Positions 2,500 to 46,997 of a stretch of DNA of 64,000 bases are shown in pieces. Both the position numbers and the translations under genes were made by a program. Source of the DNA: a virus; the IMG/VR virus record IMGVR_UViG_3300011934_000017, positions 124,001 to 188,000 of that record; one strand, given 5' to 3'. The notes below the pieces were generated by a model. The model worked only from the letters and a program-made list of their open reading frames with translations, was not told the origin of the DNA and made no database searches. Position 1 is the stretch's first letter. The number at the start of each line of letters is the position of its first letter.

Positions 2500-3990
2500 T
2501 TATTCGTCGTCGTCTTCATCCGATACTGCCGCAGATTTTTTGTTGGTATTGGAAGCACGTTTGAAGTCTACCAAATACTCATAGCCCTTTCCAGTTGCTA
2601 CCTGTTTTCGTAGAAAGTTTCGGAACAACACAGGCTTTTTCATATTCAGTGCATCGCACAGTGTACGAATGTCGGAGCGATCACCTTCAATCATGGTTTT
2701 GAACTGCGTCCATGTCAGTGTGACACCGTCTAAAGGACTCTTGAAGTCTATGTGGTAAGTCTTTTCTTTGCCTGTAGACTTATCACGTTTCGTAACATCA
2801 AAACCACTCAGGAATTTGATCTTCTTACGGGTGCCTCCAACTTGACCTGTCATCTTCAGATATTGATACGCATCCCATGTCGCACAAAAGCCAGTAGCAT
2901 CACCTTCAGCATTCTCAACAACAAGGCGCATCGTGATGGTCTGGTTAGGAACACCCCCAAGCTTGTTCTTGTGGCTGCGAATCTTGATATAGCGGTACGT
3001 ATCATTACCGTCTGCAATAACAGACTCTTCTTCTTCCAACATACCTTTACCGTGCGGAATGCTGACAGAAGACATACGTAGGCGAACGTCTGAGTAAAAC
3101 TTCAGTGCGTCACCGCAAGGCTCAGTCTCGGAAGGACCATACATTGCCATAGGTACTTTACGAAGCTGATTAACGCCGAGTACCACGATACGCTTGGAGC
3201 GCATCATGCCTTTCACACGCTTTAGGCCGTCGGAGAACATACGTGCTTGAAGCGCCAGCGACTTATCGCCTTCTTCTTTCTCGTCTGCAATACCAGGAAG
3301 CATGGCAGGATAAGAGTCAGTAAGAACGATAGCCTGAATACCTCCATCTTCAGCAGGAACACGAAAGCGATTGGTCTTGGTGAAGTATTTCTTGTCGTAT
3401 AAACCTTTAAGCGCTTTCTGATTCTCTTTGGTGTTATCGTAAATGAAATACCATTTGCCGTTCATTCGCACTTTGTCAGGCAAGACTTTACCCATCTTAG
3501 ACAGGTAGTTAAAGAATTTCTCGCCTGTGTCAGGAGCGTAGTAACGAACACGTGGTGCTACTACCCATTCTCCTGTCACGTCATCACGAACACCGAAAAC
3601 TTTCTCTACATCGCCGCTAACACCCATAGAGTGCATGATGTTTTCAATGTAGTCAGCTTGCGAACTACCTTCATAGTCAAAGTAGCTTGCAAAGCCTTTG
3701 AAAGCTTTCTGACCCATGATAGACGCAAGAATGGTCATGGCTGTTGTAGACTTACAGGACTGCTCGCCGCCGAAGCATGTATACCAACCACCACCTAACA
3801 TGCCTCCAGCTAACGCAACATCTAGCGATAGCAGGCCGGTACTGAATCGAGGTTCGTCTTTATCAATAGCCATAGAAGAGAGTCGAAACTTCTTTTCCAT
3901 GCTATCAATTTCAGCATCAATATGGGAGTAGGGATTAAACGCAGGAACCTCAGCTTCTTCAACACTTGTGCTTTTCTTACGCTTTGCCAT
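2500..3990 (-). CDS. RecA/UvsX-like recombinase
   Basis: 496 residues. The Walker A loop is GGEQSCKST (about residues 74-82), where RecA usually has GPESSGKTT. A Walker-B-like strand AIVLTDSYPA lies near residue 220. The region around 275-310, NQLRKVP...GPSETEPCGDALKFY, matches the RecA L2/NQ(I/L)R...GG(N)ALKFYxSxRL segment that binds DNA. The enzyme should coat ssDNA and catalyse ATP-dependent strand exchange in recombination-dependent replication and repair. The C-terminus ends in SDEDDDE, an acidic tail like that of bacterial RecA. It is longer than RecA (about 350) or UvsX (about 390); the extra residues lie mainly between Walker A and B. The ATG has AGG upstream. The ssDNA-binding protein gene follows upstream, as expected for partners. 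Confidence 0.92.
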   Translation of the reverse strand: MAKRKKSTSVEEAEVPAFNPYSHIDAEIDSMEKKFRLSSMAIDKDEPRFSTGLLSLDVALAGGMLGGGWYTCFGGEQSCKSTTAMTILASIMGQKAFKGFASYFDYEGSSQADYIENIMHSMGVSGDVEKVFGVRDDVTGEWVVAPRVRYYAPDTGEKFFNYLSKMGKVLPDKVRMNGKWYFIYDNTKENQKALKGLYDKKYFTKTNRFRVPAEDGGIQAIVLTDSYPAMLPGIADEKEEGDKSLALQARMFSDGLKRVKGMMRSKRIVVLGVNQLRKVPMAMYGPSETEPCGDALKFYSDVRLRMSSVSIPHGKGMLEEEESVIADGNDTYRYIKIRSHKNKLGGVPNQTITMRLVVENAEGDATGFCATWDAYQYLKMTGQVGGTRKKIKFLSGFDVTKRDKSTGKEKTYHIDFKSPLDGVTLTWTQFKTMIEGDRSDIRTLCDALNMKKPVLFRNFLRKQVATGKGYEYLVDFKRASNTNKKSAAVSDEDDDE

Positions 3991-4377
3991 TCTATAACCT
4001 CACAAAAACTGGCCGAAAGGGCCTTACGAAAAAGGATACATATCTAATAGTATCGTCTTTTAGATATGTATCCTACTCGCCGAAACTGAACGAGTAGGAT
4101 ATTCGTGCCATCTCTATATGTCATCTATACGTTCGGTATTTCTGTCATTGCGCCCGTCTGCAAACTGTTACCACAAAAACAGCGGTTGCGGCGCTCACAT
4201 ACTGCCTACTTCTCGGGGCGGCATCAACCTTGAGCAATCTTGATCGTGTTTATAAACGACCTCAGCTACACTACACAGGTTCACGATAATCGGCAGTTGT
4301 GGTACTGCCACCCAAAGCAGTAGGAGAAACAATATGTATAGCATAAGGATCTCCTATTGTGCTTTGCTCTTTAGGGA
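3991..4377 (-). promoter_or_regulatory. 387-base non-coding region with several perfect inverted repeats
   Basis: No convincing gene is present. Three structured blocks stand out. First, a 14-bp perfect inverted repeat (4034-4047 with 4060-4073) whose right arm overlaps a 10-bp inverted repeat (4070-4079 with 4091-4100), so the two hairpins are mutually exclusive. Second, GGCAGT/ACTGCC (4292-4297 with 4304-4309). Third, a long nested repeat AAAGCA/TGCTTT plus TAGGAG/CTCCTA (4314-4365) just after the SSB-like gene, probably its mRNA 3' structure or terminator. The overlapping pair lies in the 5' leader of the RecA-like gene and could act as an attenuator or protein-binding switch; that is inference. 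Confidence 0.7.
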
Positions 4378-30804: not shown

Positions 30805-31617
30805 TTAAATCGACCGTGCGTTTTCTCGCTGCCAGAACGTAGCGATGGTCTTCACACCCCCAATCACTGGAGTGCCCCCATGCAGACTGTTTGGGTCTAT
30901 AGAGCCTGTATCATTAATGTTGGCGAAGAACACAGCATCACCTTTCTGAGGAGATACTTCGAAGCCAGCTTTCGGAAAAGAAGTTTTACCTCCAGAATTA
31001 GCTGCGTGTAGATAGACCACGGTAGTACCTACTCTTTGACCACCTCCGTTTAAATGCTTTTTAGAGCCTTCGATATTGGGATTAAACCAGTCATAGTGCG
31101 GCTTGTATTGTTGTCCTATTTCATATCGTAGAATCTGAAACAGTTCTGAATTTTCTACAGGCCATTGGGTCATTGTGGATATGCGATTAGCCACATCATT
31201 CAATACAGGGCATTCCTCATACGTAAGATGGCAACCAGAAGAGGTACGTGCGTCATGCTTCACACTACCTCCACCTTCATAGTCCACAACACCAGAAGGC
31301 TTCAGTCCTTTTTGTTCTGTTGCCTCTAGTATTGTATCGGCTTCTTGTTCTGAAATAAGTCCACGAATTAAAACGGCATGTGGGTTGTTTAAACGGCACA
31401 GAACATGGATATCGTGACCGCCAATAGAAAAATGATCTTCAACGATGCGAGGTCGTGACACTTCAAAGCCAAAAGCTTCGGCTAACGCTTCTGAAGCATC
31501 TGAAGGAGACCAACAAATTCTTACCATTTCTAGTTTCAGTTGCGTTCTGTCACAGCCACGAGAAACGCTTTCCTCGAGCCAGTTACGCCAATCAGTACCA
31601 TGCATATCCATCTTCAT
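30805..31617 (-). CDS. 2OG-Fe(II) oxygenase, prolyl-4-hydroxylase type
   Basis: 270 residues. The C-terminal half (about 85-268) is a P4H-like double-stranded beta helix. Iron ligands are His174 and Asp176 (PHYDWF) and His246 (SLHGGTPV); the 2-oxoglutarate-binding Lys is 256 (GVKTIATFW). VVYLHAANSGGKTSFP and PQKGDAVFF are also typical. These enzymes hydroxylate protein side chains or, in some phages, nucleic-acid bases. The first 80 residues are not from this family. Substrate unknown. AGGT before the ATG. Confidence 0.9.
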   Translation of the reverse strand: MKMDMHGTDWRNWLEESVSRGCDRTQLKLEMVRICWSPSDASEALAEAFGFEVSRPRIVEDHFSIGGHDIHVLCRLNNPHAVLIRGLISEQEADTILEATEQKGLKPSGVVDYEGGGSVKHDARTSSGCHLTYEECPVLNDVANRISTMTQWPVENSELFQILRYEIGQQYKPHYDWFNPNIEGSKKHLNGGGQRVGTTVVYLHAANSGGKTSFPKAGFEVSPQKGDAVFFANINDTGSIDPNSLHGGTPVIGGVKTIATFWQRENARSI

Positions 31618-37172: not shown

Positions 37173-38327
37173 ATGGCTAGAATACGCAGAGGTACGGGAG
37201 GCAAGCTCCGTAAAAATGCAAAGAACTTTACGCACAAACAAGCGCAAGCACGTTTGCAAGAAACGGTAGCACCCTTTAACAAACAGGTAGATAACTCGCT
37301 ACGAGTAAATGCTGTAGAGATTGATTATTACCAGACACAAAACAAAATAGGCAGACCATGTACTTGCGACAAGATACAAATATATGATGAACAAAAGACG
37401 CGAGACGGTGGCAGCAATTCAAATCATATAGAACCAGTTGTACCTACCGTAGACGAAGACAGTAGCTCAAGATTAGATATTGAGCTTCAGGACGACAATC
37501 TGTTTGGTGATGGGCCTGCTGAAAAGCTGTACGGTGAAAACGTATATGATGTTAGTGGTTCCGACAATCTGAAAGACGACGATATTCCTGACGAAATATA
37601 TCGAAACATGTTGGCAGGCGAAGGCGACGTAGCCATGTCTGAAACCTCCATGTTCGGTTCAAATGCTAACTGTGGAATATGCTATCGTGTAGGTTTCCAG
37701 CCGGGGTACAAGTCATACGGCAAACAGCGTACATTGTTGACCACGTGGGACATTAAAGACATAAGCAGTTATAATGTTGTCACGACCGAGACACCTAATA
37801 AGATGCGGCGTCAAGGCCCCAAAACAGACTACACGTTTGTTGAGTTCACCTTGTTCGTTCCGAAGTATTTCAAGTCTTGTATTTTCAGCATTCGAAACAA
37901 CACACAGATTCTACAAGGTGAGCGGATTCGAGCGTTTAACCAACCGCTGACTTTGAAAACGTTGAAAGACAATGCAGGCAAAGAAATTGTGGTTCGAGTG
38001 GATGCGTTGGAGTTCACGCATATTGTTGTCGAGTTTGATCTAGGTGTTCAAAAGACATATGCCAATCTAGGACCAGAAAGCCAAGCGCTTGACTATTCCA
38101 AGATGGATGCGCTTTCAAACTTTCCTTTAGTTCTTCCTCCTTCTATTCACGAGGTCAATACAGGTGATGTTATAGTCATCAAAGACCGAAAACTGGTACT
38201 AAAAATCATAGACCTGGAGAGAAAGATAACAGCAGATAAGAGGCAATTAGAATGGACAGTTCAAACTCGACTAATCCAAAAAACAGAACCCTTGAGAGAC
38301 ATTGCGAAGGGCATGAAGATTCTGTAG
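37173..38327 (+). CDS. Probable virion protein
   Basis: 384 residues from the ATG at 37173 (CAGGAG upstream). A very basic N-terminus (MARIRRGTGGKLRKNAK), a linker with CTCDK, an acidic Asn/Asp stretch (about 95-150), then a beta-rich domain starting at NCGICYRVGFQPGY. This order with the neighbouring protease and the gene at 39739 looks like a structural block, but no family is certain. Overlaps the protease gene by 76 bases. Confidence 0.55.
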   Translation: MARIRRGTGGKLRKNAKNFTHKQAQARLQETVAPFNKQVDNSLRVNAVEIDYYQTQNKIGRPCTCDKIQIYDEQKTRDGGSNSNHIEPVVPTVDEDSSSRLDIELQDDNLFGDGPAEKLYGENVYDVSGSDNLKDDDIPDEIYRNMLAGEGDVAMSETSMFGSNANCGICYRVGFQPGYKSYGKQRTLLTTWDIKDISSYNVVTTETPNKMRRQGPKTDYTFVEFTLFVPKYFKSCIFSIRNNTQILQGERIRAFNQPLTLKTLKDNAGKEIVVRVDALEFTHIVVEFDLGVQKTYANLGPESQALDYSKMDALSNFPLVLPPSIHEVNTGDVIVIKDRKLVLKIIDLERKITADKRQLEWTVQTRLIQKTEPLRDIAKGMKIL

Positions 38328-39742
38328 GAAGAAAGAATTACATTGTCACCGTAAAAAGAAATGTCGTCAAAGAAGACGTGCTGGATGAATTACAGCGCCC
38401 AGAATGCGGATGCGTCCATCGAAGCGTCGAAGTAACCGACTTCCAATCGTTGAGCAGAAGGAATTTCACAGTAGCTTTGACTGTGGAAGAGCGGGATATC
38501 CTGAGAGAAAGCGACAATGTGGTTGATGTTGTTTTGGAAGAAGGCTTCAATAGAATGAAGCCTGTGCTTGAAGAGCAACTGATTAATCCTGCTTTTGAGA
38601 ATAGCGCTTCAAGCACCCACGACAACTGGGCTCTGGATCATTGTGCGTTTCGAAACGGATACAAGTACATTTACTCGCACACCGGAAAGAACGTAGACAT
38701 AATCTTCATTGACTCAGGTGTGGACCCTAATCACTCTGAGTTCGAACAGAACGGTGTATCCAGAGTCCGCGTTATTGAATGGGAAGCTGGACAGTTCAGC
38801 ACTAAGCCAGATCAATACGTAGACACGGAGGGTCATGGGACTGGTGTGTCTAGCTGTGGTGTAGGCAAAAGACAAGGCTTCGCAAAAGACAGTGACATAT
38901 ATAGCATAAAGATTTTTGATAATGATGCCTACAGCCCGTTAAAAGCGTTGCAGCTTGCGCGTACTTGGCACAATCAAAAGACGAACGGTCGTCCTACCAT
39001 AGTGAACAATAGCTGGGGATATTCAGCGGAGTATCCACCTGGGCATCCTAAAGCAGGACAAAAGCATCCTGTTCAAGTAGCTGTGATAGATGCTGAAATC
39101 GAATCCATGATAGACGCGGGCATTATAGTAGTAAGCGCAGCAGGAAATGAAAATCACCACGTAGCCGCAGAAGGCACTGCCGAATACGATGATTTTTACT
39201 ACACAGACAGCAGCGGTAACTACACCGAAATTATGGAGGATGCTGCATACTTTGATAGGAACAATCGATACACGCCGGGCGGTTCTGCCGAGACGATATG
39301 CGTTGGTTCAATAGGTGAGTTCTATCCTACTTCCAGATTCATAAGGTCATGGTTTTCTAATTTTGGAAGTAGGGTAGACATATTTGCTCCAGGACGTGTG
39401 ATTCAGTGTGCTCAGTCCTTAACAACAAACGATCTAAAGAAAACCAATGGTACTTCTTTTTCTTCCGGCATTCTGAGCGGTATAATTGCGCTTTGGTTAG
39501 AGATAAACCCGACTGCGAATCAAATGGATGTTAGAAAATGGCTGAGTAGGCATGCCTTTTCAAGCGAGGTCGTAGGCAGTTTAGAAGGTGCAGAAAATCA
39601 AACAGCCAGAGTATTGTTCAACGGTGTCAGAGCAGCTAAAGACACTCCTCATACAATACTGTTGAAGCAAGGTAATCAATGGTATCCAGTACAACATATA
39701 ACCAGCAATAAACGAGCCGTATATGGCAGGAGAATTTCATGA
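38252..39742 (+). CDS. Subtilisin-like (S8) serine protease
   Basis: 496 residues. Catalytic triad motifs: IIFIDSGVDPNHSEFE (Asp about 153), TEGHGTGVSSCG (His about 194), NGTSFSSGILSG (Ser about 400). IVNNSWGYS and VVSAAGNE (oxyanion Asn) are also present. No signal peptide, so it acts in the cytoplasm or in the virion. The first 120 residues resemble an inhibitor-like propeptide (VTVKRNVVKEDVLDELQ...LTVEERDILRESDNVVDVV). In a virion block it could be a maturation or host-cleaving protease. AGAGG before the ATG; the start overlaps the upstream gene. Confidence 0.93.
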   Translation: MDSSNSTNPKNRTLERHCEGHEDSVGRKNYIVTVKRNVVKEDVLDELQRPECGCVHRSVEVTDFQSLSRRNFTVALTVEERDILRESDNVVDVVLEEGFNRMKPVLEEQLINPAFENSASSTHDNWALDHCAFRNGYKYIYSHTGKNVDIIFIDSGVDPNHSEFEQNGVSRVRVIEWEAGQFSTKPDQYVDTEGHGTGVSSCGVGKRQGFAKDSDIYSIKIFDNDAYSPLKALQLARTWHNQKTNGRPTIVNNSWGYSAEYPPGHPKAGQKHPVQVAVIDAEIESMIDAGIIVVSAAGNENHHVAAEGTAEYDDFYYTDSSGNYTEIMEDAAYFDRNNRYTPGGSAETICVGSIGEFYPTSRFIRSWFSNFGSRVDIFAPGRVIQCAQSLTTNDLKKTNGTSFSSGILSGIIALWLEINPTANQMDVRKWLSRHAFSSEVVGSLEGAENQTARVLFNGVRAAKDTPHTILLKQGNQWYPVQHITSNKRAVYGRRIS

Positions 39743-40356
39743 ACGACAAGAGCCTAGAAATTTCAAAGAACATGGTAGTATTAGCACGTCGTCGCAAAGG
39801 TAAAGGAAAGAAGCGTGGTTCAGCGCGTAGCCAGATGCTAAAGATGGTCATGCCTATGCTTTCCCGTGAACATGGAGAGAAACTAGCAGAAGCTATCGAA
39901 CACAATAACGTAAGTCTGCTACGCCGCACATGGGATTCAATTAAACATGATCTATCGGAAAAGCTGGCGAATGAAGCTACTGCCAGCGACTTTGCTTCTG
40001 AAGTCCAAGAAATCTTTGATAAAGTCTTTAAAGACCTTGAAGAAGAGTTTCTTTCACAATCAGCGTCTAAGAACAGAGGACGTTTGTTAACAGGCACCGC
40101 GCGTATTCCCTCTTTGACTCGTGATCTAATTGCAGATGGTTATGTTGAATTTACCGATGCAAAAAATAACGTCTATACTGTGACTATCACGCAGCTTGGT
40201 GTTAAGAAAGTTGGAAATCCTCAACCAATAATCTATGCAGGCGCTTTAATTACCTCTGATTCCGGAATGAAAGAAGGTATATCTGCTTCTGGAATTTATG
40301 CTGACGTTTGTTCGGAGATTATTATTTCTGCTATGTCGCTGTCAGAAAACGATTAA
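39739..40356 (+). CDS. Hypothetical protein, probably structural
   Basis: 205 residues, ATGA overlap with the protease stop, AGGAG upstream. A basic segment (ARRRKGKGKKRGSARSQ), a helical middle and a beta C-terminus (YVEFTDAKNNVYTVTI). Unrecognised; coupled to the protease, so a substrate or partner is possible. Confidence 0.55.
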   Translation: MNDKSLEISKNMVVLARRRKGKGKKRGSARSQMLKMVMPMLSREHGEKLAEAIEHNNVSLLRRTWDSIKHDLSEKLANEATASDFASEVQEIFDKVFKDLEEEFLSQSASKNRGRLLTGTARIPSLTRDLIADGYVEFTDAKNNVYTVTITQLGVKKVGNPQPIIYAGALITSDSGMKEGISASGIYADVCSEIIISAMSLSEND

Positions 40357-40371
40357 ACCTACCGAAACCTC

Positions 40372-40400
40372 TAAAAAGGGCGGCAAATGCTGCCTTTTTT
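40372..40400 (+). terminator. Terminator closing the protease block
   Basis: GGCA-AATGC-TGCC flanked by AAAAAG and TTTTTT, 15 bases past the stop at 40356. Confidence 0.85.
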
Positions 40401-41367
40401 CGTGTCTGAAGCGTGACGCTGAAACATCAAATGTAACAGAGTGTTAACCATGCAAAAGCACTCTACAGGGCTGTTTGAAAGCATTGGGGGCGTCATCCAT
40501 GCAAAACCAATGCTTTTGCATGTCTGTAAGCAAAATACCTTGTTACAATTCGTTACAAAAAAGTTTTGTGTGGAAGAAATGCGTTTTTAGACCGTTTGGA
40601 GCCTCTGTCCTGTTAAAAAACGTCAAAATATCAACCTTGTTTTTTAGACGCCTTAAAATCAGGCTAAAAATCACTCATTTTTAACGATTTCCTCAAAACC
40701 AAAAAGTGTCAATACGCAGTATTGGCGCAGATTGCGTTGAGCAGCAAAGCGTGAAGAGCTAAGCGAGGCGCAGCCGAGCATTAGCGATGATGCTTGAGTA
40801 ATGCCTCAGCAAACAAGAGACGCTAGGCGGCGCGAACACTTAGAGCCCGTCTCGTCCAGAAGCGTTGAGCGCAGCGAATAAGCGAAGGGGTTCCAAGCGA
40901 AGCGTTAAGCGTTCCAAGCGCTGCGAGGCAGCGCGATAGCAACGAGCGTAGCGAGTTGCTTAAAAGAACCTATCCTACGCGATCCTACGACTGATTCATT
41001 TAAAGAACGTTAAGCAATTAAAAATTGCATTCTTTTGGATCATGTTAAAACAGGCCGAACTCTGTCTTTGCTAAGACCATAGCAGACCTTAAAACAAGGT
41101 GAATTAATAGGACGTGTGGAATTAAATGAGCCAGTCGTAGGACTGCGTAGTGTTGTATAATGTTAAAGGTCCAACTCGCTACGCTCGTCGTCCCTAACGC
41201 TGCTTCGCAGCGTTTCTCTAATCCTTTCCGCTTCGCGGTACCGCGGGCTAACGCCCGCTCTCGCTCACTTCGTTCGCTCACCTTAAAAAACCTAATTTGT
41301 CAGTTCAAAAATCAAAGTCTTTTCAAGACAAACTTTTTAAATGAAAAACTTTTGTTGCGCGCTTTAA
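40401..41367. other. About 1 kb hairpin-rich non-coding region
   Basis: No credible gene. 40448-40522 holds three overlapping inverted repeats (ATGCAAAAGCA/TGCTTTTGCAT, AAAGCATTGG/CCAATGCTTT, CATGCAAAA/TTTTGCATG) sharing one right arm. 40726-40960 is filled with AGCG-type words (aagcgaagcg, gcagcgcga) and hairpins such as GCAAC...GTTGC at 40939-40959. 41174-41280 has dense short hairpins: AACGCTGC-TTC-GCAGCGTT (41196-41214), CCGC-TTC-GCGG (41228-41238), GCGGGC-TAAC-GCCCGC (41243-41258), and tcgctcacttcgttcgctca. Base composition is unlike the flanks. Candidate replication origin, recombination hotspot or remains of inserted DNA; not decided by sequence alone. Confidence 0.7.
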
Positions 41368-41376
41368 GTGTAAATA
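41368..41376 (+). promoter_or_regulatory. Late-type promoter GTGTAAATA before the modification island
   Basis: Exact consensus, 33 bases before the methyltransferase-like gene's ATG. Confidence 0.65.
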
Positions 41377-41409
41377 TTGAACAGATTATATGGAAAACCG
41401 GAGATTACG

Positions 41410-42885
41410 ATGGGAAAACAGTTACCCGAAGAGCTAAGGTATCAGCTTCTTGTTTTCGACTATAAGAAAGCTAACAAGGCACGCAAGCTCTGGAAAAAAC
41501 GTAAAGGAGATAAGGATAAAGAAGCCCATAAAAAGTTTTGCTATGGATTAGGAGCAAAGCTAGACGTTTCTCCGAAAGTAGTTAGCTTCATCGTCAAAAA
41601 CAATAAATGGGCAGATCAAAAGCCCGCAGAGCATGTAAAATCATTACCAACAGGCCTTCAAGAATACGATAAACCTTCTTTGAAGCCTGAAGCCTTAGTC
41701 AGAGGAAGAGAATTATACATATCTCCTAAAAACTGGCGCAGGCTCAACGAGCATTACACCAAAGGAAAAATAAAGAAAGCTATTGTTCGCGCTGTTAGAA
41801 AGCTAGATTTACCTGCACCTGTTCAACCTATAAGCCAAGAGCAAGCAGATGATAGCTTTCGAGCACTGAAAAAGTTGCGTTCTGACAGCATGATAAAACG
41901 TATGCCTACCTGCACACGGTGGGATTATAAATACGGTATTTCCGACGTTGTTATTGACGCACCTCGAACAGGAAACGAATGCTCAAACTTTTATCATCAG
42001 GAGTCACGTTGGTGGTGCGACTATCAGAGTATTCCGTCACCGATGAAAGTATGGAATTCTGATCTTCACATGTATTCCATGATGAATGCTTTATGGACGT
42101 TGAAGTTTAAGAAGATTACAGGACCAGAGCTTCGCACAGCTATAAGTGTCCGTAAATATGTGGCTAGTCAGTTTAAACCTTCTGCCGCCAAAGCGTTTTA
42201 CGAGCTATTTGACTGCAAGCACGTTTACGATCCTTCCAGTGGCTGGGGAGACCGTCTAGCAGGCTTCATGGCAGCTAAATGCACCAAGTCCTATTGCTCT
42301 ACGGATCCCAACAGCAGACTGTACGACGACTATGAATTGCAGAAAAATCGGTACGGTGGAAAGAAAGAAATAAACATGTACTGTCACGGTAGTGAAATCA
42401 AAGGTGGTGTTCGCAAGATGTACGGACACAGAGTTGATACTGTCTTTACTTCGCCTCCTTATTTCAATGCCGAACGCTACAGCGAAGACGAAGGCCAAAG
42501 CTTTAGGCAGTTTGATGAAATAAGTGCGTGGCGTGAAAATTTCCTGTTTCCTTCTTTGAAAAATGCGTGGAATGCTTTGACTTCAGAAGGTGAACGCGGT
42601 GGCATTCTAGCAATCAATATTTCGGACATATACAACTCTTCGGATAAAACTCGCGGTGAGATATGCGACCCTATGAACGATTACATATCTTCGCTGAAAG
42701 GTGCTCGATACATCGGTTGTATTGGTTTGCGTCTAGCTAAACGTCCTGAGAGCGGTGCACTTGAAGGTAAACAAGGTGCAAGTATCGAACCTATCTGGGT
42801 CTGGGCTAAAGGTGGCTCTTGGGAGCTAGACGATTATATAGATAACGGATTTAAGACTAAGAAAGTAAAAGGTCTTTGGGGATAA
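41410..42885 (+). CDS. DNA methyltransferase-fold enzyme with SPPY motif
   Basis: 491 residues from the ATG at 41410 (GGAG 7 bases upstream). Motif I is YDPSSGWGDRLAGFMA near residue 275 and motif IV is TVFTSPPYFN near 347. The order I then IV and the S-P-P-Y sequence fit amino-methyltransferases (N4-cytosine or N6-adenine). GGILAINISDIY after it fits the next core strand. The first 230 residues have no known domain: a basic helical segment that may bind DNA. It heads an island with a TS-like, a PLP and a PP-loop enzyme (2 bases to the next gene), so it may modify the phage base itself or transfer a group other than methyl; that is inference. Confidence 0.8.
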   Translation: MGKQLPEELRYQLLVFDYKKANKARKLWKKRKGDKDKEAHKKFCYGLGAKLDVSPKVVSFIVKNNKWADQKPAEHVKSLPTGLQEYDKPSLKPEALVRGRELYISPKNWRRLNEHYTKGKIKKAIVRAVRKLDLPAPVQPISQEQADDSFRALKKLRSDSMIKRMPTCTRWDYKYGISDVVIDAPRTGNECSNFYHQESRWWCDYQSIPSPMKVWNSDLHMYSMMNALWTLKFKKITGPELRTAISVRKYVASQFKPSAAKAFYELFDCKHVYDPSSGWGDRLAGFMAAKCTKSYCSTDPNSRLYDDYELQKNRYGGKKEINMYCHGSEIKGGVRKMYGHRVDTVFTSPPYFNAERYSEDEGQSFRQFDEISAWRENFLFPSLKNAWNALTSEGERGGILAINISDIYNSSDKTRGEICDPMNDYISSLKGARYIGCIGLRLAKRPESGALEGKQGASIEPIWVWAKGGSWELDDYIDNGFKTKKVKGLWG

Positions 42886-42886
42886 T

Positions 42887-43597
42887 ATGGCACATATCAT
42901 TGAAGCAAACAGTATCGACAGTCTTTGGTATCGTACTATGAATACCTTACTGACTGAAGGCGATAAGATTAGCGGTATTCAAGAAATTCCTAATCTGATC
43001 TTGGTTCTTAAAAAGAATTTTCGATCCTCTGAGTTTTTCGATAAAGAGTTTCGTCGTATTTTTGGAGACGAACGAATAGACTTTGCATCTTCTGTAACGT
43101 TTGTTCCTCCGAAAGAAGGCATGGTAAGTCCTTCATACGAACAGAATGAGCCCAAAGCTAAGTGGACGAAAACTTACTGGGGTCGTATGATCAGTTTTGA
43201 CGGAAGTGTTAATCAGATTGAGGAAGCAATCAAAAAGCTTTCTAAAGGTAAGAATACCAAGATGATTTCTATAGGTATTTATGCGCCTTCTTCCGATCAT
43301 CGCAAAGTCATGGGTGGTGTGCCTTGTATGACTGCTATCGATATAAAGCCTAGAAATGGAAAGATTGATCTATCTGTTTTCATGAGGTCTATGCGATTCT
43401 CTAAGTCGGGTTATGGAGACGTTCATGCCTTGTGTGAACTAGGTAAATATATCTGTGAGCGCTCTAACATGGAAATGAACAGCCTCACCATGTTTGCGAC
43501 CTCTGGACACACTTTTTACTCTGGTGAAGAGTTTACAAACTGTAAAGCTCTTATGGAATCAATGAAAGAACGCAAAGCAGAGAAGGTAAGAATATGA
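42887..43597 (+). CDS. Divergent thymidylate-synthase/dCMP-hydroxymethylase-like enzyme
   Basis: 236 residues, close to T4 dCMP hydroxymethylase (246). The C-terminal 100 residues align without gaps to E. coli thymidylate synthase: GVPCMTAID (active Cys146), 20 residues to VFMRSM (Arg166, Ser167), 11 more to GYGDV, then 30 to the SGH His207. Three sites differ: Asp169 is Arg, Tyr209 is Phe, and Asn177, which reads the pyrimidine, is Asp. N177D is the change that makes hydroxymethylases prefer cytosine. The N-terminal part keeps a Q-I-E-E-A-I-x-x-L segment but loses the S-R-R phosphate loop. It may act on a cytosine nucleotide, or on DNA. Confidence 0.75.
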   Translation: MAHIIEANSIDSLWYRTMNTLLTEGDKISGIQEIPNLILVLKKNFRSSEFFDKEFRRIFGDERIDFASSVTFVPPKEGMVSPSYEQNEPKAKWTKTYWGRMISFDGSVNQIEEAIKKLSKGKNTKMISIGIYAPSSDHRKVMGGVPCMTAIDIKPRNGKIDLSVFMRSMRFSKSGYGDVHALCELGKYICERSNMEMNSLTMFATSGHTFYSGEEFTNCKALMESMKERKAEKVRI

Positions 43598-44409
43598 AGC
43601 TCAGCCTTAATAATCCAGTTGAAACCCATCGTATTGGCAAATACGAAGTCTTTGTCAAGCGTGATGATATGATGGGTGATAATAAAATTCTTCCACCTTG
43701 GGGAAAGATGGACGCCATTGATAGTATTCTTCAAAGAATGGATCTTAGCGTACCTCTTATACAACTGAATGTCTTTGGTTCTTGGAGTGGTTGGGCACTC
43801 GCACGTCTCGCTAAAAAGTATGATTGCGAAGTACATGTGGTTCATCCTAAGACGAAGAAAATCACTGACGACTATATAGGTGTGATGGAAGAAGCAGGTG
43901 CTATCATTCATCCTATTCGACATAATATGATGCGCGTTTTGTACGCTCAGACGAACAACAGGGCGAAAGAAGAAGGTATGAGAATGCTGCCGTATGCATT
44001 CAACACACCGAAATATCTAAACGCTATGGCAAGACGTTTACGCGCTACTTTAGAAGAGCTGGGTCCCATAGATAACTTGGTGGTAAGCTCTGGTAGTGGT
44101 GTGACTGTTACGGGACTGTCTAAACCTTTTCTTGATCTAAATCCTAAAGGTCAAGTCTACACTGTTTGCGTTTCGTCCGAAAATTCGATTCGTAAAACGT
44201 TTAACAGTCGTGAAGTCAGCACTGATCCTGTTCACATTATCAAGTCACCGTATGAGTTTGGTGATACGATGCCTAAAGTTGAAGTTCCTTTCTCTTGTAA
44301 TCAGTTTTGGGATAAGAAAGCTTGGCATTGGTTGACGGAGAACAAGAGCATTCTTAAAGGTAAGCGTACACTGTTCTGGAATCTAGGTGGTGAGTATACA
44401 TTTTTGTGA
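43594..44409 (+). CDS. PLP-dependent enzyme, ACC-deaminase/D-cysteine-desulfhydrase-like
   Basis: 271 residues, a little shorter than family members (about 330). Motifs: FVKRDDMMGDN near 20-30 followed by PPWGKMDAI, where the family has G-G-N-K-x-R-K; the Lys in WGKM is the likely PLP-binding one. LNVFGSWSGWALARLAKKYDC matches the S-N-H-x-x-x-x-A-A-A segment, and VVSSGSGVTVTGLS the glycine-rich PLP-phosphate loop. Fold type II enzymes deaminate or beta-replace amino acids. Here it may supply or attach an amino-acid-derived group. Overlaps the TS-like gene by 4 bases. Confidence 0.7.
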   Translation: MKLSLNNPVETHRIGKYEVFVKRDDMMGDNKILPPWGKMDAIDSILQRMDLSVPLIQLNVFGSWSGWALARLAKKYDCEVHVVHPKTKKITDDYIGVMEEAGAIIHPIRHNMMRVLYAQTNNRAKEEGMRMLPYAFNTPKYLNAMARRLRATLEELGPIDNLVVSSGSGVTVTGLSKPFLDLNPKGQVYTVCVSSENSIRKTFNSREVSTDPVHIIKSPYEFGDTMPKVEVPFSCNQFWDKKAWHWLTENKSILKGKRTLFWNLGGEYTFL

Positions 44410-44420
44410 GGATTGAATAA

Positions 44421-45263
44421 ATGGGCAAGCCGAAAGTTAAAGAATGTTTGATACGTAACCTGGAAAGATATGACGGACCTTTTGCTGTTCTTCTGTCGGG
44501 TGGTGCAGACAGTCACGCTAATCTTTTCGCATTACTTGAGATGGGCGCAGACGTACACGTATATAGCTGCACCTTAGAAGACAGGGAAAGCAGGGATTTT
44601 ATTTGTGCTCGCAGGACTGCTGAAATCTTTGATCTACCTTTCACACCTGTTATTTTACCTACAGACCTCGACCAGCTCCTTGTAGATATTCGAGAGAACA
44701 TGAGTCTTATCGGAACAAAAGGCAAGGTAGAGGTAGAAGCTTTATGGGCGTTTCGTAAAGCCGTTGATATTATAACAGAACCTAGTATCGTCAGCGGTCT
44801 GTCAGCAGGTATGTATTTTTGTTTGACCAAGAAAGGCAGCATACACTACGCACATACAGGAAGAATCGACGAATATCGTAGAGAGACATTTAAAAGAGCC
44901 TCTAATCCTAATAATCAAGGGGCCAAGATGAAACGATATTCGAAAAGCGTTGGAAAGAAGTGGATAAATCCTTGGATAACCCGAGGAATGCTAAAGACGT
45001 TCTTAGGAACTACATGGGAAGATGTAAATAAACCACGACAAAAAGAAGCGATCCGCGCAGACTTTGAAAAATACTTTGCAAAAACCAAAGTGTTTAATCA
45101 ACGAGACATGCACAAAGGTGATAGCGGTATGTCTGAGCTATTCGCTAAATTGTTGGAAGACCCTAAGGTAAATGTTAGGAATCATAAATCTGTTGTTGGT
45201 ATCTACAATATGATACGAGCAGAAGAGCTGGCCAGAGTAAATAAAGGCCCTGGCTTGTTCTAG
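44421..45263 (+). CDS. Asparagine-synthetase-like PP-loop ATP pyrophosphatase
   Basis: 280 residues. The PP-loop AVLLSGGADSHAN (about 23-35) is followed by the E-D-R-E-S-x-D-F-x-x-A-R-x-T-A-E-I-F-D-L segment typical of the asparagine synthetase C-domain, and NKPRQKEAIRADFEKYF near 220-240 fits its end. There is no glutaminase domain, so ammonia would come from elsewhere, possibly from the neighbouring PLP enzyme. Such enzymes adenylate a carboxyl or carbonyl group and replace AMP with an amine or sulphur. GAGGA before the ATG. Confidence 0.8.
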   Translation: MGKPKVKECLIRNLERYDGPFAVLLSGGADSHANLFALLEMGADVHVYSCTLEDRESRDFICARRTAEIFDLPFTPVILPTDLDQLLVDIRENMSLIGTKGKVEVEALWAFRKAVDIITEPSIVSGLSAGMYFCLTKKGSIHYAHTGRIDEYRRETFKRASNPNNQGAKMKRYSKSVGKKWINPWITRGMLKTFLGTTWEDVNKPRQKEAIRADFEKYFAKTKVFNQRDMHKGDSGMSELFAKLLEDPKVNVRNHKSVVGIYNMIRAEELARVNKGPGLF

Positions 45264-45275
45264 TCGGAGAATGCA

Positions 45276-45938
45276 ATGCTTACTTTCCAACATTTAGATA
45301 AACTCACCATAAACGAATTTTTTGAAAGCGACTTGTTTTTTGAGTTGCACTCTCTGTCTGGTATGAGCATATTTAGCGGTAGTACGGAAACAGTAAAAGA
45401 GAAATTGCTAGATTCTGTACACAACCAACAAGAAAAGGTTTCACACAACCTCGTATGTTCGAATGGAAAACCTGTTGGTTTCTTTTCTTTGAAGACGCAC
45501 AGTACCTACTTTTACTACGACACCTTTACAGATACAGTAGAAGACTTAGGTAATGCGGTAGAGTTTTCTAGTTGGTTTGTTTCTAGTAGCTATAAAAATC
45601 TAGTTTCTCCTACCGCCGCTATAATGAGAAAAAGCTTAGAAATGGCAAGTGACATTGGACGCATTGCTGTGTTTGGTGTGCGAGCACAGTATTACGAAGA
45701 CGGTACTCCAATGTTTCTTTCTGCGAATAGAGATTGTTGGAGTCACGAACCGCGACCAGACTACAATATATCTAATGGGCCTAAAAACTTGTCTGTGACG
45801 CATCCTTCTTTTCATCCTGATTCTTTTGGTATTTTAAAAGCTGCTCACCTGTTTGGCTTTAATATGTTTGGTTTAGATGCTTACGACGGGAGTCCTAAAT
45901 ATCGCAAGTTTCTTTCTTCAATGAAATCTGTTGAATGA
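45276..45938 (+). CDS. Small protein of the island, possibly acetyltransferase-like
   Basis: 220 residues. A strand NGKPVGFFSLKT, then VEFSSWFVSSSYKN, resembles the GNAT order (strand 4, then L/F-x-x-x-x-V-x-x-x-Y-R-x), and the end HLFGFNMFGLDAYDG could be the last GNAT strands, but the acetyl-CoA Q/R-x-x-G-x-G/A loop is not clear. Mom-type DNA acyltransferases are divergent in this way. I hold this as a guess. GGAG before the ATG; 12 bases after the PP-loop gene. Confidence 0.5.
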   Translation: MLTFQHLDKLTINEFFESDLFFELHSLSGMSIFSGSTETVKEKLLDSVHNQQEKVSHNLVCSNGKPVGFFSLKTHSTYFYYDTFTDTVEDLGNAVEFSSWFVSSSYKNLVSPTAAIMRKSLEMASDIGRIAVFGVRAQYYEDGTPMFLSANRDCWSHEPRPDYNISNGPKNLSVTHPSFHPDSFGILKAAHLFGFNMFGLDAYDGSPKYRKFLSSMKSVE

Positions 45939-45982: not shown

Positions 45983-46963
45983 ATGTCGATTACCGTAGAA
46001 AAAGACGATTATATAATCGTTCGTTACCGCAACAAGTCCGTTCTTTGTTTTGTGTTGAATGGAAAAAGCTGTAGAGGCGTTATAGAAAAAACGCTTCATA
46101 CCGATGATCCTGAGAATATCACTTACGAAAGTGAAAACGTTCTCTGTAATCTGGGTCCCAACCCACAAAATGGCAAAATCTACGGCATTGATGTTACACC
46201 GTATCGAAGCACCATAGATACAAAGACGTTTGGCCCCATTCATCTATTCCGTGACGTTCCTAAAAAGGAGCTTAAAGCGCTTCGTTCTGCAATGAAGACG
46301 GTGCACAAGAAATTTGAGAAAGAGGCGAGCACTGCCTTTCTACCTTTGTATCAAATGCACATTCTACCGAAGAAGGGCAAGTATGCAGGGTCATATCTAG
46401 CCAAGTCTAAAGGCAGTGAAGTATGGGACCAGATTAAACTGCATCCCGACACATTCGTTGATCCTATCTATAACGAATACCTGATTGCCCACGAGTTTGC
46501 ACACGGCCTCTGGTACCGCTGTGTGCCTATGGATATCCGAGCTAAGTGGATCAATCTATATCAAAAGCGTCGTAAGCTAAACTCTATTAATCAAAAGCAT
46601 CTGGACGAGCTTTACCAAGAGCTTATGCGTTATGAAGGTGGTATTCGTGATTACATCAAAGAAGTAGCCGACGATGAAGAAAAACTGGTAATCAAGGAAG
46701 TGTTGAACTACTTCAAGCGTTACCAGAGTATGTCTTCAGATGATGTGGAGCTCTTGTTGTTACATGATAGTGGCAAGCTTGCTGATATGTGGCCGAGCCG
46801 TGCTCTACTATCAGAGACCAGTCCCGACATTTCCACCTATTCTATGGTCAAGGTAGAAGAATTTTTTGCAGAGGCTGTGGCTTATCATTTTACAGGAAGA
46901 ACGTTACCTAAAGATGTTCAGAAAGGCATTTCTATCACCTTCAAAAAGTGCAAACAAGCTTAA
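45983..46963 (+). CDS. Zinc metallopeptidase-like protein (HEFAH)
   Basis: 326 residues. IAHEFAHGLWYRC near 169-181 is an HExxH zinc motif; EVKNFFAEAVAYHF-type segment KVEEFFAEAVAYHF near 295-308 supplies a likely third ligand Glu, as in ImmA/gluzincin-type enzymes. No signal peptide. GAGGA before the ATG. It follows the island by 44 bases and ends in a strong terminator; target unknown. Confidence 0.75.
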   Translation: MSITVEKDDYIIVRYRNKSVLCFVLNGKSCRGVIEKTLHTDDPENITYESENVLCNLGPNPQNGKIYGIDVTPYRSTIDTKTFGPIHLFRDVPKKELKALRSAMKTVHKKFEKEASTAFLPLYQMHILPKKGKYAGSYLAKSKGSEVWDQIKLHPDTFVDPIYNEYLIAHEFAHGLWYRCVPMDIRAKWINLYQKRRKLNSINQKHLDELYQELMRYEGGIRDYIKEVADDEEKLVIKEVLNYFKRYQSMSSDDVELLLLHDSGKLADMWPSRALLSETSPDISTYSMVKVEEFFAEAVAYHFTGRTLPKDVQKGISITFKKCKQA

Positions 46964-46971
46964 TTCTAGCA

Positions 46972-46997
46972 GGGAAGCTTTTTAGCTTCCCTTTTTT
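46972..46997 (+). terminator. Terminator after the metallopeptidase gene
   Basis: GGGAAGCT-TTTT-AGCTTCCC followed by TTTTTT. Confidence 0.95.

Follow-up and report, generated by a model that had tools for sequence, protein, structure and literature searches.

Which product, if any, is made jointly by five closely packed genes in the genome of a jumbo phage is the question raised by the locus described here. The window analyzed is a stretch of 64,000 nucleotides corresponding to positions 124001-188000 of the 220,237-bp virus record IMGVR_UViG_3300011934_000017 from IMG/VR (genome G000), and coordinates refer to this window unless stated otherwise. The five open reading frames (ORFs), designated g1-g5, all lie on the plus strand with intergenic gaps of 1, -4, 11, and 12 nt in order, and no DNA-level relative of this region of the window was found among 50,697 phage records. 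In the best reading, the cassette consists of a three-gene core, g2 (thymidylate synthase-like), g3 (pyridoxal phosphate-dependent), and g4 (amide ligase), together with two decorations, g1 (methyltransferase) and g5 (GNAT-like). The core is predicted to build a cytosine hypermodification of DNA that ends in an amide, with a probability of about 0.6.

A thymidylate synthase-like enzyme with cytosine determinants

The product of g2 (42887..43597, plus strand, 236 aa) belongs to the thymidylate synthase (TS) superfamily, with matches to phrog_5131 (2e-9) and to TIGR03283 (2.6e-21), its best NCBIfam family being that of the methanogen TS. The phage has a separate canonical TS (G000:95233-96351) retaining Asn177 and Asp169, and g2 is thus a second, specialized enzyme of the superfamily. 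Residues are numbered according to E. coli TS; C146, D169, and N177 fell at their expected positions, in agreement with the canonical TS of the phage. Cys147 and Asp178 of g2 correspond to TS positions Cys146 and Asn177. An Asp at TS position 177 is the hallmark of enzymes acting on cytosine (PMC8670742), and this residue points with good confidence to cytosine as the predicted modified base.

Residue mapping revealed that Cys146, Arg166, Ser167, Asp177, and His207 are common to all cassette TS-like members tested, and that Glu58, Asp169, and Gly173 are lost in all of them, as they are in HY126, LC53, and Thanatos. Glu58, Asp169, and Gly173 are all found in the canonical TS enzymes, that of E. 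coli and that of this phage, as well as in T4 gp42 and the M6-type 5-hydroxymethyluracil (hmU) enzyme. Thus, g2 resembles the dCMP hydroxymethylase T4 gp42 in its superfamily, catalytic Cys, and cytosine-specifying Asp, but is devoid of the folate/water residues kept by gp42. A Foldseek search with the predicted model of g2 gave 9iqu and 9iqc as top matches, described as the phage HY126 dCMP hydroxylase AfhB with dCMP and as a riboflavin-dependent monooxygenase with dCMP and FAD. AfhB is the 5-hydroxy-dCMP synthase of the arabinosyl-hydroxycytosine phages RB69, HY126, and LC53, and probably Thanatos; it shares with g2 the TS fold, Cys146, Asp177, His207, and the loss of Glu58, Asp169, and Gly173. 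The 5-hydroxy-dCMP (5-hodCMP) synthase of Mosigvirus is likewise an enzyme of the TS superfamily (PMC13390438). Sugar-transfer genes lie nearby in AfhB-type phages, whereas a PLP enzyme and a ligase are found instead at the g2 loci.

The loss of the folate determinants and the fold closest to a flavin-dependent dCMP hydroxylase favor a hydroxylase over a hydroxymethylase, and 5-hydroxycytosine is, with moderate confidence, the likelier product of g2. A preliminary description of the window had already placed the TS-like step on cytosine, in line with Asp177, but the hydroxymethylation that it envisaged fits these features poorly. If g2 did make 5-hydroxymethyl-dCMP with methylene-tetrahydrofolate, the PLP enzyme, the ligase, and the others would build on a hydroxymethyl group in DNA. 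Asp177 and Cys146 are retained as such an enzyme of the TS superfamily would have them, and the family-profile matches of g2 begin with the CMP hydroxymethylase MilA (6.7e-21), followed by the phage HY126 protein and then by thymidylate synthases and T4 dCMP hydroxymethylase. Also, relatives in Enterococcus phages adjoin a beta-glucosyltransferase. The methanogen TS uses another pterin, and an unusual one-carbon donor is conceivable given the best NCBIfam family of g2. Nevertheless, the absence of Glu58, Asp169, and Gly173 from every cassette member tested, along with the short C-terminal segment of g2 (short in T4 gp42 too), makes a hydroxymethyl handle improbable.

A PLP enzyme of the M6 type

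The g3 product (43594..44409, plus strand, 271 aa) is a fold-type-II pyridoxal 5'-phosphate (PLP) enzyme matching PALP (5.8e-11) and phrog_7093 (3e-25), with the invariant Lys38 and the SGSG loop retained. Among named proteins, it is closest to the M6/YuA-type phage PLP enzymes, which fall in the same clade. The C-terminal signature PFPCNxFWDxKAWxWL...FWNxG is common to g3 and the M6-type PLP enzyme, and a cassette relative of g3 shows 27% identity over 99% of the M6 protein. No relative was found in the bacterial genomes scanned for a g3-type PLP enzyme. Owing to the shared clade, it is more likely that g3 works on the side chain of the base than that it merely frees ammonia, a role suggested for it previously.

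The M6/YuA-type PLP enzyme is part of a thymidine-hypermodification cassette that further comprises a pyrimidine hydroxymethylase, a kinase, a radical SAM enzyme, and aGPT-PPlases (PMC9476957). This pathway to 5-(2-aminoethyl)-dU also includes a TS-superfamily enzyme, but that enzyme recognizes uracil (Asn177) in place of the cytosine (Asp177) of the g2 side, and the amide ligase sets the present cassette further apart. The amino acid:DNA transferase/aGPT-PPlase (PF18724) of the M6/YuA-type pathway was absent in ten carriers of the cassette including G000, and no M6-type radical SAM enzyme was detected among the G000 ORFs by phmmer with a single MP1412 query sequence.

A ligase of the CmoY lineage in a syntenic position

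The g4 product (44421..45263, plus strand, 280 aa) is an ATP-dependent amide ligase with the PP-loop SGGADS and without a glutaminase domain, matching Asn_synthase (3e-5) and phrog_26038 (5e-53). In tblastn comparisons, its identity was 39% with a Pseudomonas phage PaBG protein and 27.5% (7e-18) with one from Synechococcus phage S-B43. The latter is CmoY, which has been demonstrated to couple glycine to 5-carboxymethylcytosine in DNA, the carboxymethyl group being put on cytosine by CmoX and the carboxy-SAM being made by CmoA (PMC12783734). In the ligase tree, g4 and its homologue in the related virus contig L015 (described below) grouped with CmoY proteins, apart from the other ligases of the cassette (support 81/62). 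The earlier view of the PP-loop enzyme as the ATP-dependent coupling step is in agreement with this lineage.

The genomic slot is also equal to that of PaBG, where ParB, CmoX, and CmoA are followed by a small protein and CmoY, next by a 204-aa protein and a Zn-endopeptidase, and then by two small proteins, a clamp loader, and SbcC. Downstream in the window, as in PaBG, an SbcC-like gene accompanies a peptidase and a clamp loader (43% and 53% identity, respectively), and g1, g2, and g3 occupy the slot of the PaBG ParB, CmoX, and CmoA. However, unlike the CmoA-CmoX-CmoY system of S-B43, with homologous genes in PaBG, G000 and its relative G001 have neither CmoA (TIGR00740) nor the C5-methyltransferase CmoX (PF00145), and TS-fold and PLP enzymes stand in their place. 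CmoA was absent in ten other carriers as well and was found in PaBG, SNUABM_5, Yen9-02, and S-B43; CmoX was found in PaBG. From lineage and synteny, g4 is expected, with moderate to good confidence, to form an amide on a cytosine side chain. In two further phages, Erwinia phage SNUABM_5 (L003) and Yersinia phage fHe-Yen9-02 (L006), CmoA and CmoY lie near an adenine methyltransferase of the D12 class (PF02086), and a large C5-methyltransferase ORF (∼700 aa) is located farther away; N6-carboxymethyladenine chemistry is conceivable in these phages.

The ligase also bears on a reading closer to the M6 pathway, according to which an unrecognized enzyme puts an amino acid on the cytosine handle. Decarboxylation of this amino acid by g3 would leave an amine, to which g4 would join a free acid. 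The clade and tail signature of g3 would fit, as would g5, GNAT-type caps being suited to amines. This scheme is nonetheless unlikely, as neither PF18724 nor the M6-type radical SAM enzyme was found in the searches given above and the tested CmoY activates a carboxylate of DNA, not a free acid (PMC12783734).

DNA as the target is strongly indicated because the CmoY lineage of g4 and its PaBG slot, the M6-type clade of g3, the DNA-methyltransferase motif of g1, and the replication-gene neighbors all point to it; the proposal of a DNA base-modification cassette in the preliminary description thereby gains support. MilA-like TS enzymes, PLP enzymes, dehydrogenases, and AsnB are also found in nucleoside-antibiotic pathways. 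Together with the match of the g2 family to MilA, this would suit genes making a small nucleoside or amino-acid product such as an inhibitor or metabolite. Such a product is highly improbable, since the CmoY lineage and PaBG synteny, the M6-type PLP clade, and the DNA-methyltransferase companion would not be expected of it, and the genes are sited among replication genes with no export genes alongside.

Co-occurrence of the core genes across IMG/VR

A scan of IMG/VR with g1 identified L015, a 277.6-kb jumbo virus contig with all five genes in a rearranged order: TS, PLP, methyltransferase, hypothetical, peptidase, CmoY-like, and GNAT. Identity to the L015 homologues was 61-64% for g1-g3 and 52% for g4. 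Single-sequence scans of IMG/VR with g2, g3, and g4 gave no match, and a two-sequence TS scan returned only L015; overly specific peptide patterns account for these sparse results, and larger alignments succeeded. The TS alignment retrieved 72 loci. Among the 36 with full flanks, a PLP enzyme was present in 35, a methyltransferase in 35, an AsnB-type ligase with a glutaminase domain in 25, and a short ligase in 10, the usual order being methyltransferase-TS-ligase-PLP. Co-occurrence of the cassette genes is far beyond chance, and the prediction that they would be found together elsewhere is borne out by L015 and by the TS-anchored loci.

The PLP alignment retrieved 80 loci, 37 of them with flanks longer than 4.5 kb at each end. 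A TS-like gene was present in 14 of these and a D-2-hydroxyacid dehydrogenase (PF02826, 9e-15) in the other 23, none having both or neither. Over all classified loci (n = 127), the TS was present in 79 and the dehydrogenase in 48, and no locus had both, so that the PLP enzyme occurs with either partner in at least 127 loci (61 once near-copies were removed). On a tree of the 61 dereplicated PLP proteins and one M6-type relative, the TS/dehydrogenase label changed six times, at least five of the changes being forced by well-supported branches, and L061 and L070 exhibited the swap within one flanking context. This exchange suggests either that the two enzymes have a common function or that the side chain comes in two different chemotypes. 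Seven of the dehydrogenase-type loci (L069, L077-L079, and L086-L088) have neither methyltransferase nor ligase nearby; in these, a conserved 282-aa Cys-containing protein without a Pfam family lies upstream of the dehydrogenase and the PLP enzyme. In L178, TS and AsnB are joined in a single ORF in which the N-terminal catalytic Cys of AsnB is missing. The fusion is in favor of a shared pathway but only suggestive, as it may be a product of deletion or assembly.

The methyltransferase and GNAT-like companions

The g1 product is a DNA amino-methyltransferase-fold protein (41410..42885, plus strand, 491 aa from ATG 41410) with DPSSGWGDR as motif I and TSPPYF as motif IV. It matched phrog_12517 (1e-8) and, below the cut-off, Pfam N6_N4_Mtase (0.0023). 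The profile matches of g1-g4 are in agreement with the families assigned to them at the outset: methyltransferase fold, TS-like, PLP, and PP-loop asparagine synthetase-like. Both hallmarks of DNA amino-methyltransferases (N4-C/N6-A), motif IV (S/T)SPPY and the SAM-binding motif I, are thus present; motif IV is TSPPYF or SSPPYF in 78 of 90 cluster proteins and invariant in alignment A10. In the methyltransferase-anchored scan of IMG/VR, 60 of 80 loci were without any other cassette gene nearby. Hence, the large methyltransferase family to which g1 belongs is found mostly on its own, g1 is a frequent but non-exclusive companion of the core, and the idea of g1-g5 as one obligate unit was dropped.

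In L016, a g1-family methyltransferase (1-1596) is directly followed by a Mom gene (1593-2381; PF25680, 1e-52), and a Mom-like gene (3199-3999) lies ∼4 kb from the cassette of L178. A link between the g1 methyltransferase family and Mom is possible. The Mom product is N6-carbamoylmethyladenine. This neighborhood would also be compatible with g1 as an N4-cytosine or N6-adenine carboxymethyltransferase that uses carboxy-SAM from the host CmoA, its product being amidated by g4 and other roles being left for g2 and g3. A CmoY-lineage ligase in a phage without CmoA would then be accounted for; in E. coli, the CmoA of the host was enough for CmoX (PMC12783734). Such a route is very unlikely, however, as g1-family genes mostly have no ligase nearby, the constant company of the ligase with g2 and g3 would be left unexplained, and the absence of N4/N6 carboxymethyltransferase candidates has been reported (PMC12783734).

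The g5 product (45276..45938, plus strand, 220 aa) is an accessory GNAT-like protein present in only two genomes, this virus and L015. It gave no profile match, Pfam included, and its predicted model had a mean confidence (pLDDT) of 49. Its L015 homologue, sharing 29% identity, is a GNAT protein (PF00583, 1e-8), which makes the early label of a possible acyltransferase reasonable. Neither g5 nor the homologue had a Mom match in Pfam, and g5 as a Mom-type protein was rejected; PaBG_00181 as its counterpart was rejected. As the g1 family is mostly found alone and g5 in two genomes only, the specific core is TS-like enzyme, PLP enzyme, and ligase, and not five equal partners as initially supposed.

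Proposed route and significance

In the proposed route, g2 would bind cytosine via Asp178 and attack C6 by Cys147 without folate, hydroxylating C5 to give a 5-hydroxycytosine handle, as its residues and fold suggest; the reaction would take place at the dCMP level and be flavin-dependent, as with AfhB/5-hodCMP synthase. Beta-replacement is the usual reaction of the cysteine-synthase/fold-type-II PLP fold. In the weakest step, g3 might attach or reshape an amino-acid unit on the handle; a serine derivative undergoing beta-replacement, for instance, could give base-O-CH2-CH(NH2)-COOH. The side-chain carboxylate would then be adenylated by g4 and converted to an amide with ammonia or an amino acid, as by CmoY on 5-carboxymethylcytosine. 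Speculatively, g5 could serve to acylate a free amine, and the base or its side chain could be a methylation target of g1. This exact order of hydroxylation, amino-acid unit, amide, and decoration by g5 or g1 is tentative, being less probable than the predicted core outcome. Shielding of the DNA from host nucleases or bacterial defenses is a plausible candidate role.

Several observations weigh against this interpretation. The model of g2 is only moderate (pLDDT 73), with two poor segments and a root-mean-square deviation of 6-8. The cassette TS-like proteins fall outside the clade of the known hydroxylases and form a clade of their own (support 1.0), with Arg or Ala at position 169, where the hydroxylases have Asn, and Lys at 126. 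Owing to this separate clade and the residues at 169, g2 may perform a third reaction that is neither hydroxylation nor hydroxymethylation. It is not obvious that the dehydrogenase found in place of g2 elsewhere has the same function, and the support of 81/62 for the CmoY-lineage grouping of g4 is modest. Furthermore, the PLP enzyme of the M6 pathway is reportedly a decarboxylase (Lee et al., 2021), and a similar activity of g3 would remove the carboxylate needed by g4.

Known phage DNA hypermodifications start from few handles, namely, hydroxymethyl, hydroxyl, carboxymethyl, and deazaguanine. The present cassette draws on three distinct pathways, with a hydroxylase-like TS fold, an M6-type PLP enzyme, and a CmoY ligase. 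The combination of TS fold, PLP enzyme, and CmoY/AsnB ligase was not found described in the accessible literature, and an earlier prediction of the gene set is possible. It could perhaps define a new class of hypermodified cytosine, with 5-hydroxycytosine, a side chain derived from an amino acid and added by a PLP beta-replacement enzyme, and amide closure, occurring across uncultured viruses with exchange between two chemotypes (TS-fold or 2-hydroxyacid dehydrogenase) as well as among three ligase types, although this is a doubtful extension. The number of loci in which the PLP enzyme accompanies either partner suggests that the unexplained modification is common in uncultured viruses. The TS/dehydrogenase swap offers a direct test of the diversification of modification pathways under host restriction, and the three core enzymes are enough for a reconstitution trial.

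Transcription unit and neighboring genes

The ORFs and tight gaps of a five-gene plus-strand unit are as first described, but the start of g1 is most likely ATG 41410, with GGAG upstream, and not near 41368, and the unit runs past 45938. A Zn-peptidase-like gene (45983..46963, plus strand), syntenic in PaBG and L015, starts 44 nt after g5 in the same unit and is probably not part of the modification chemistry. A strong intrinsic-terminator-like hairpin with a T tail (46971..46992, plus strand) ends the unit after this gene. The single late-type promoter proposed for the unit was not recovered: no sigma-70-like site was found on the plus strand in 40300-41400, where promoter-like sites were fewer than in shuffles, this test being blind to promoters recognized by a phage sigma factor.

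The ∼1-kb region 40357-41409 lacks clear genes and may be regulatory or the small remnant of a mobile element. It holds a 29-nt inverted repeat (40975-41003/41122-41150, 86%) along with a perfect one of 17 nt (40942-40958/41172-41188). A subtilase-family peptidase (38252-39742, plus strand; PF00082, 5.7e-27) is an unusual gene to adjoin a phage replication region. A 2OG-Fe(II) oxygenase (30805-31617, minus strand; PF13640, 4.5e-14) could be a further side-chain hydroxylase; it is homologous (phmmer, 3e-20) to an oxygenase directly adjoining a CmoY-like ligase in Salmonella phage Sen-NF.

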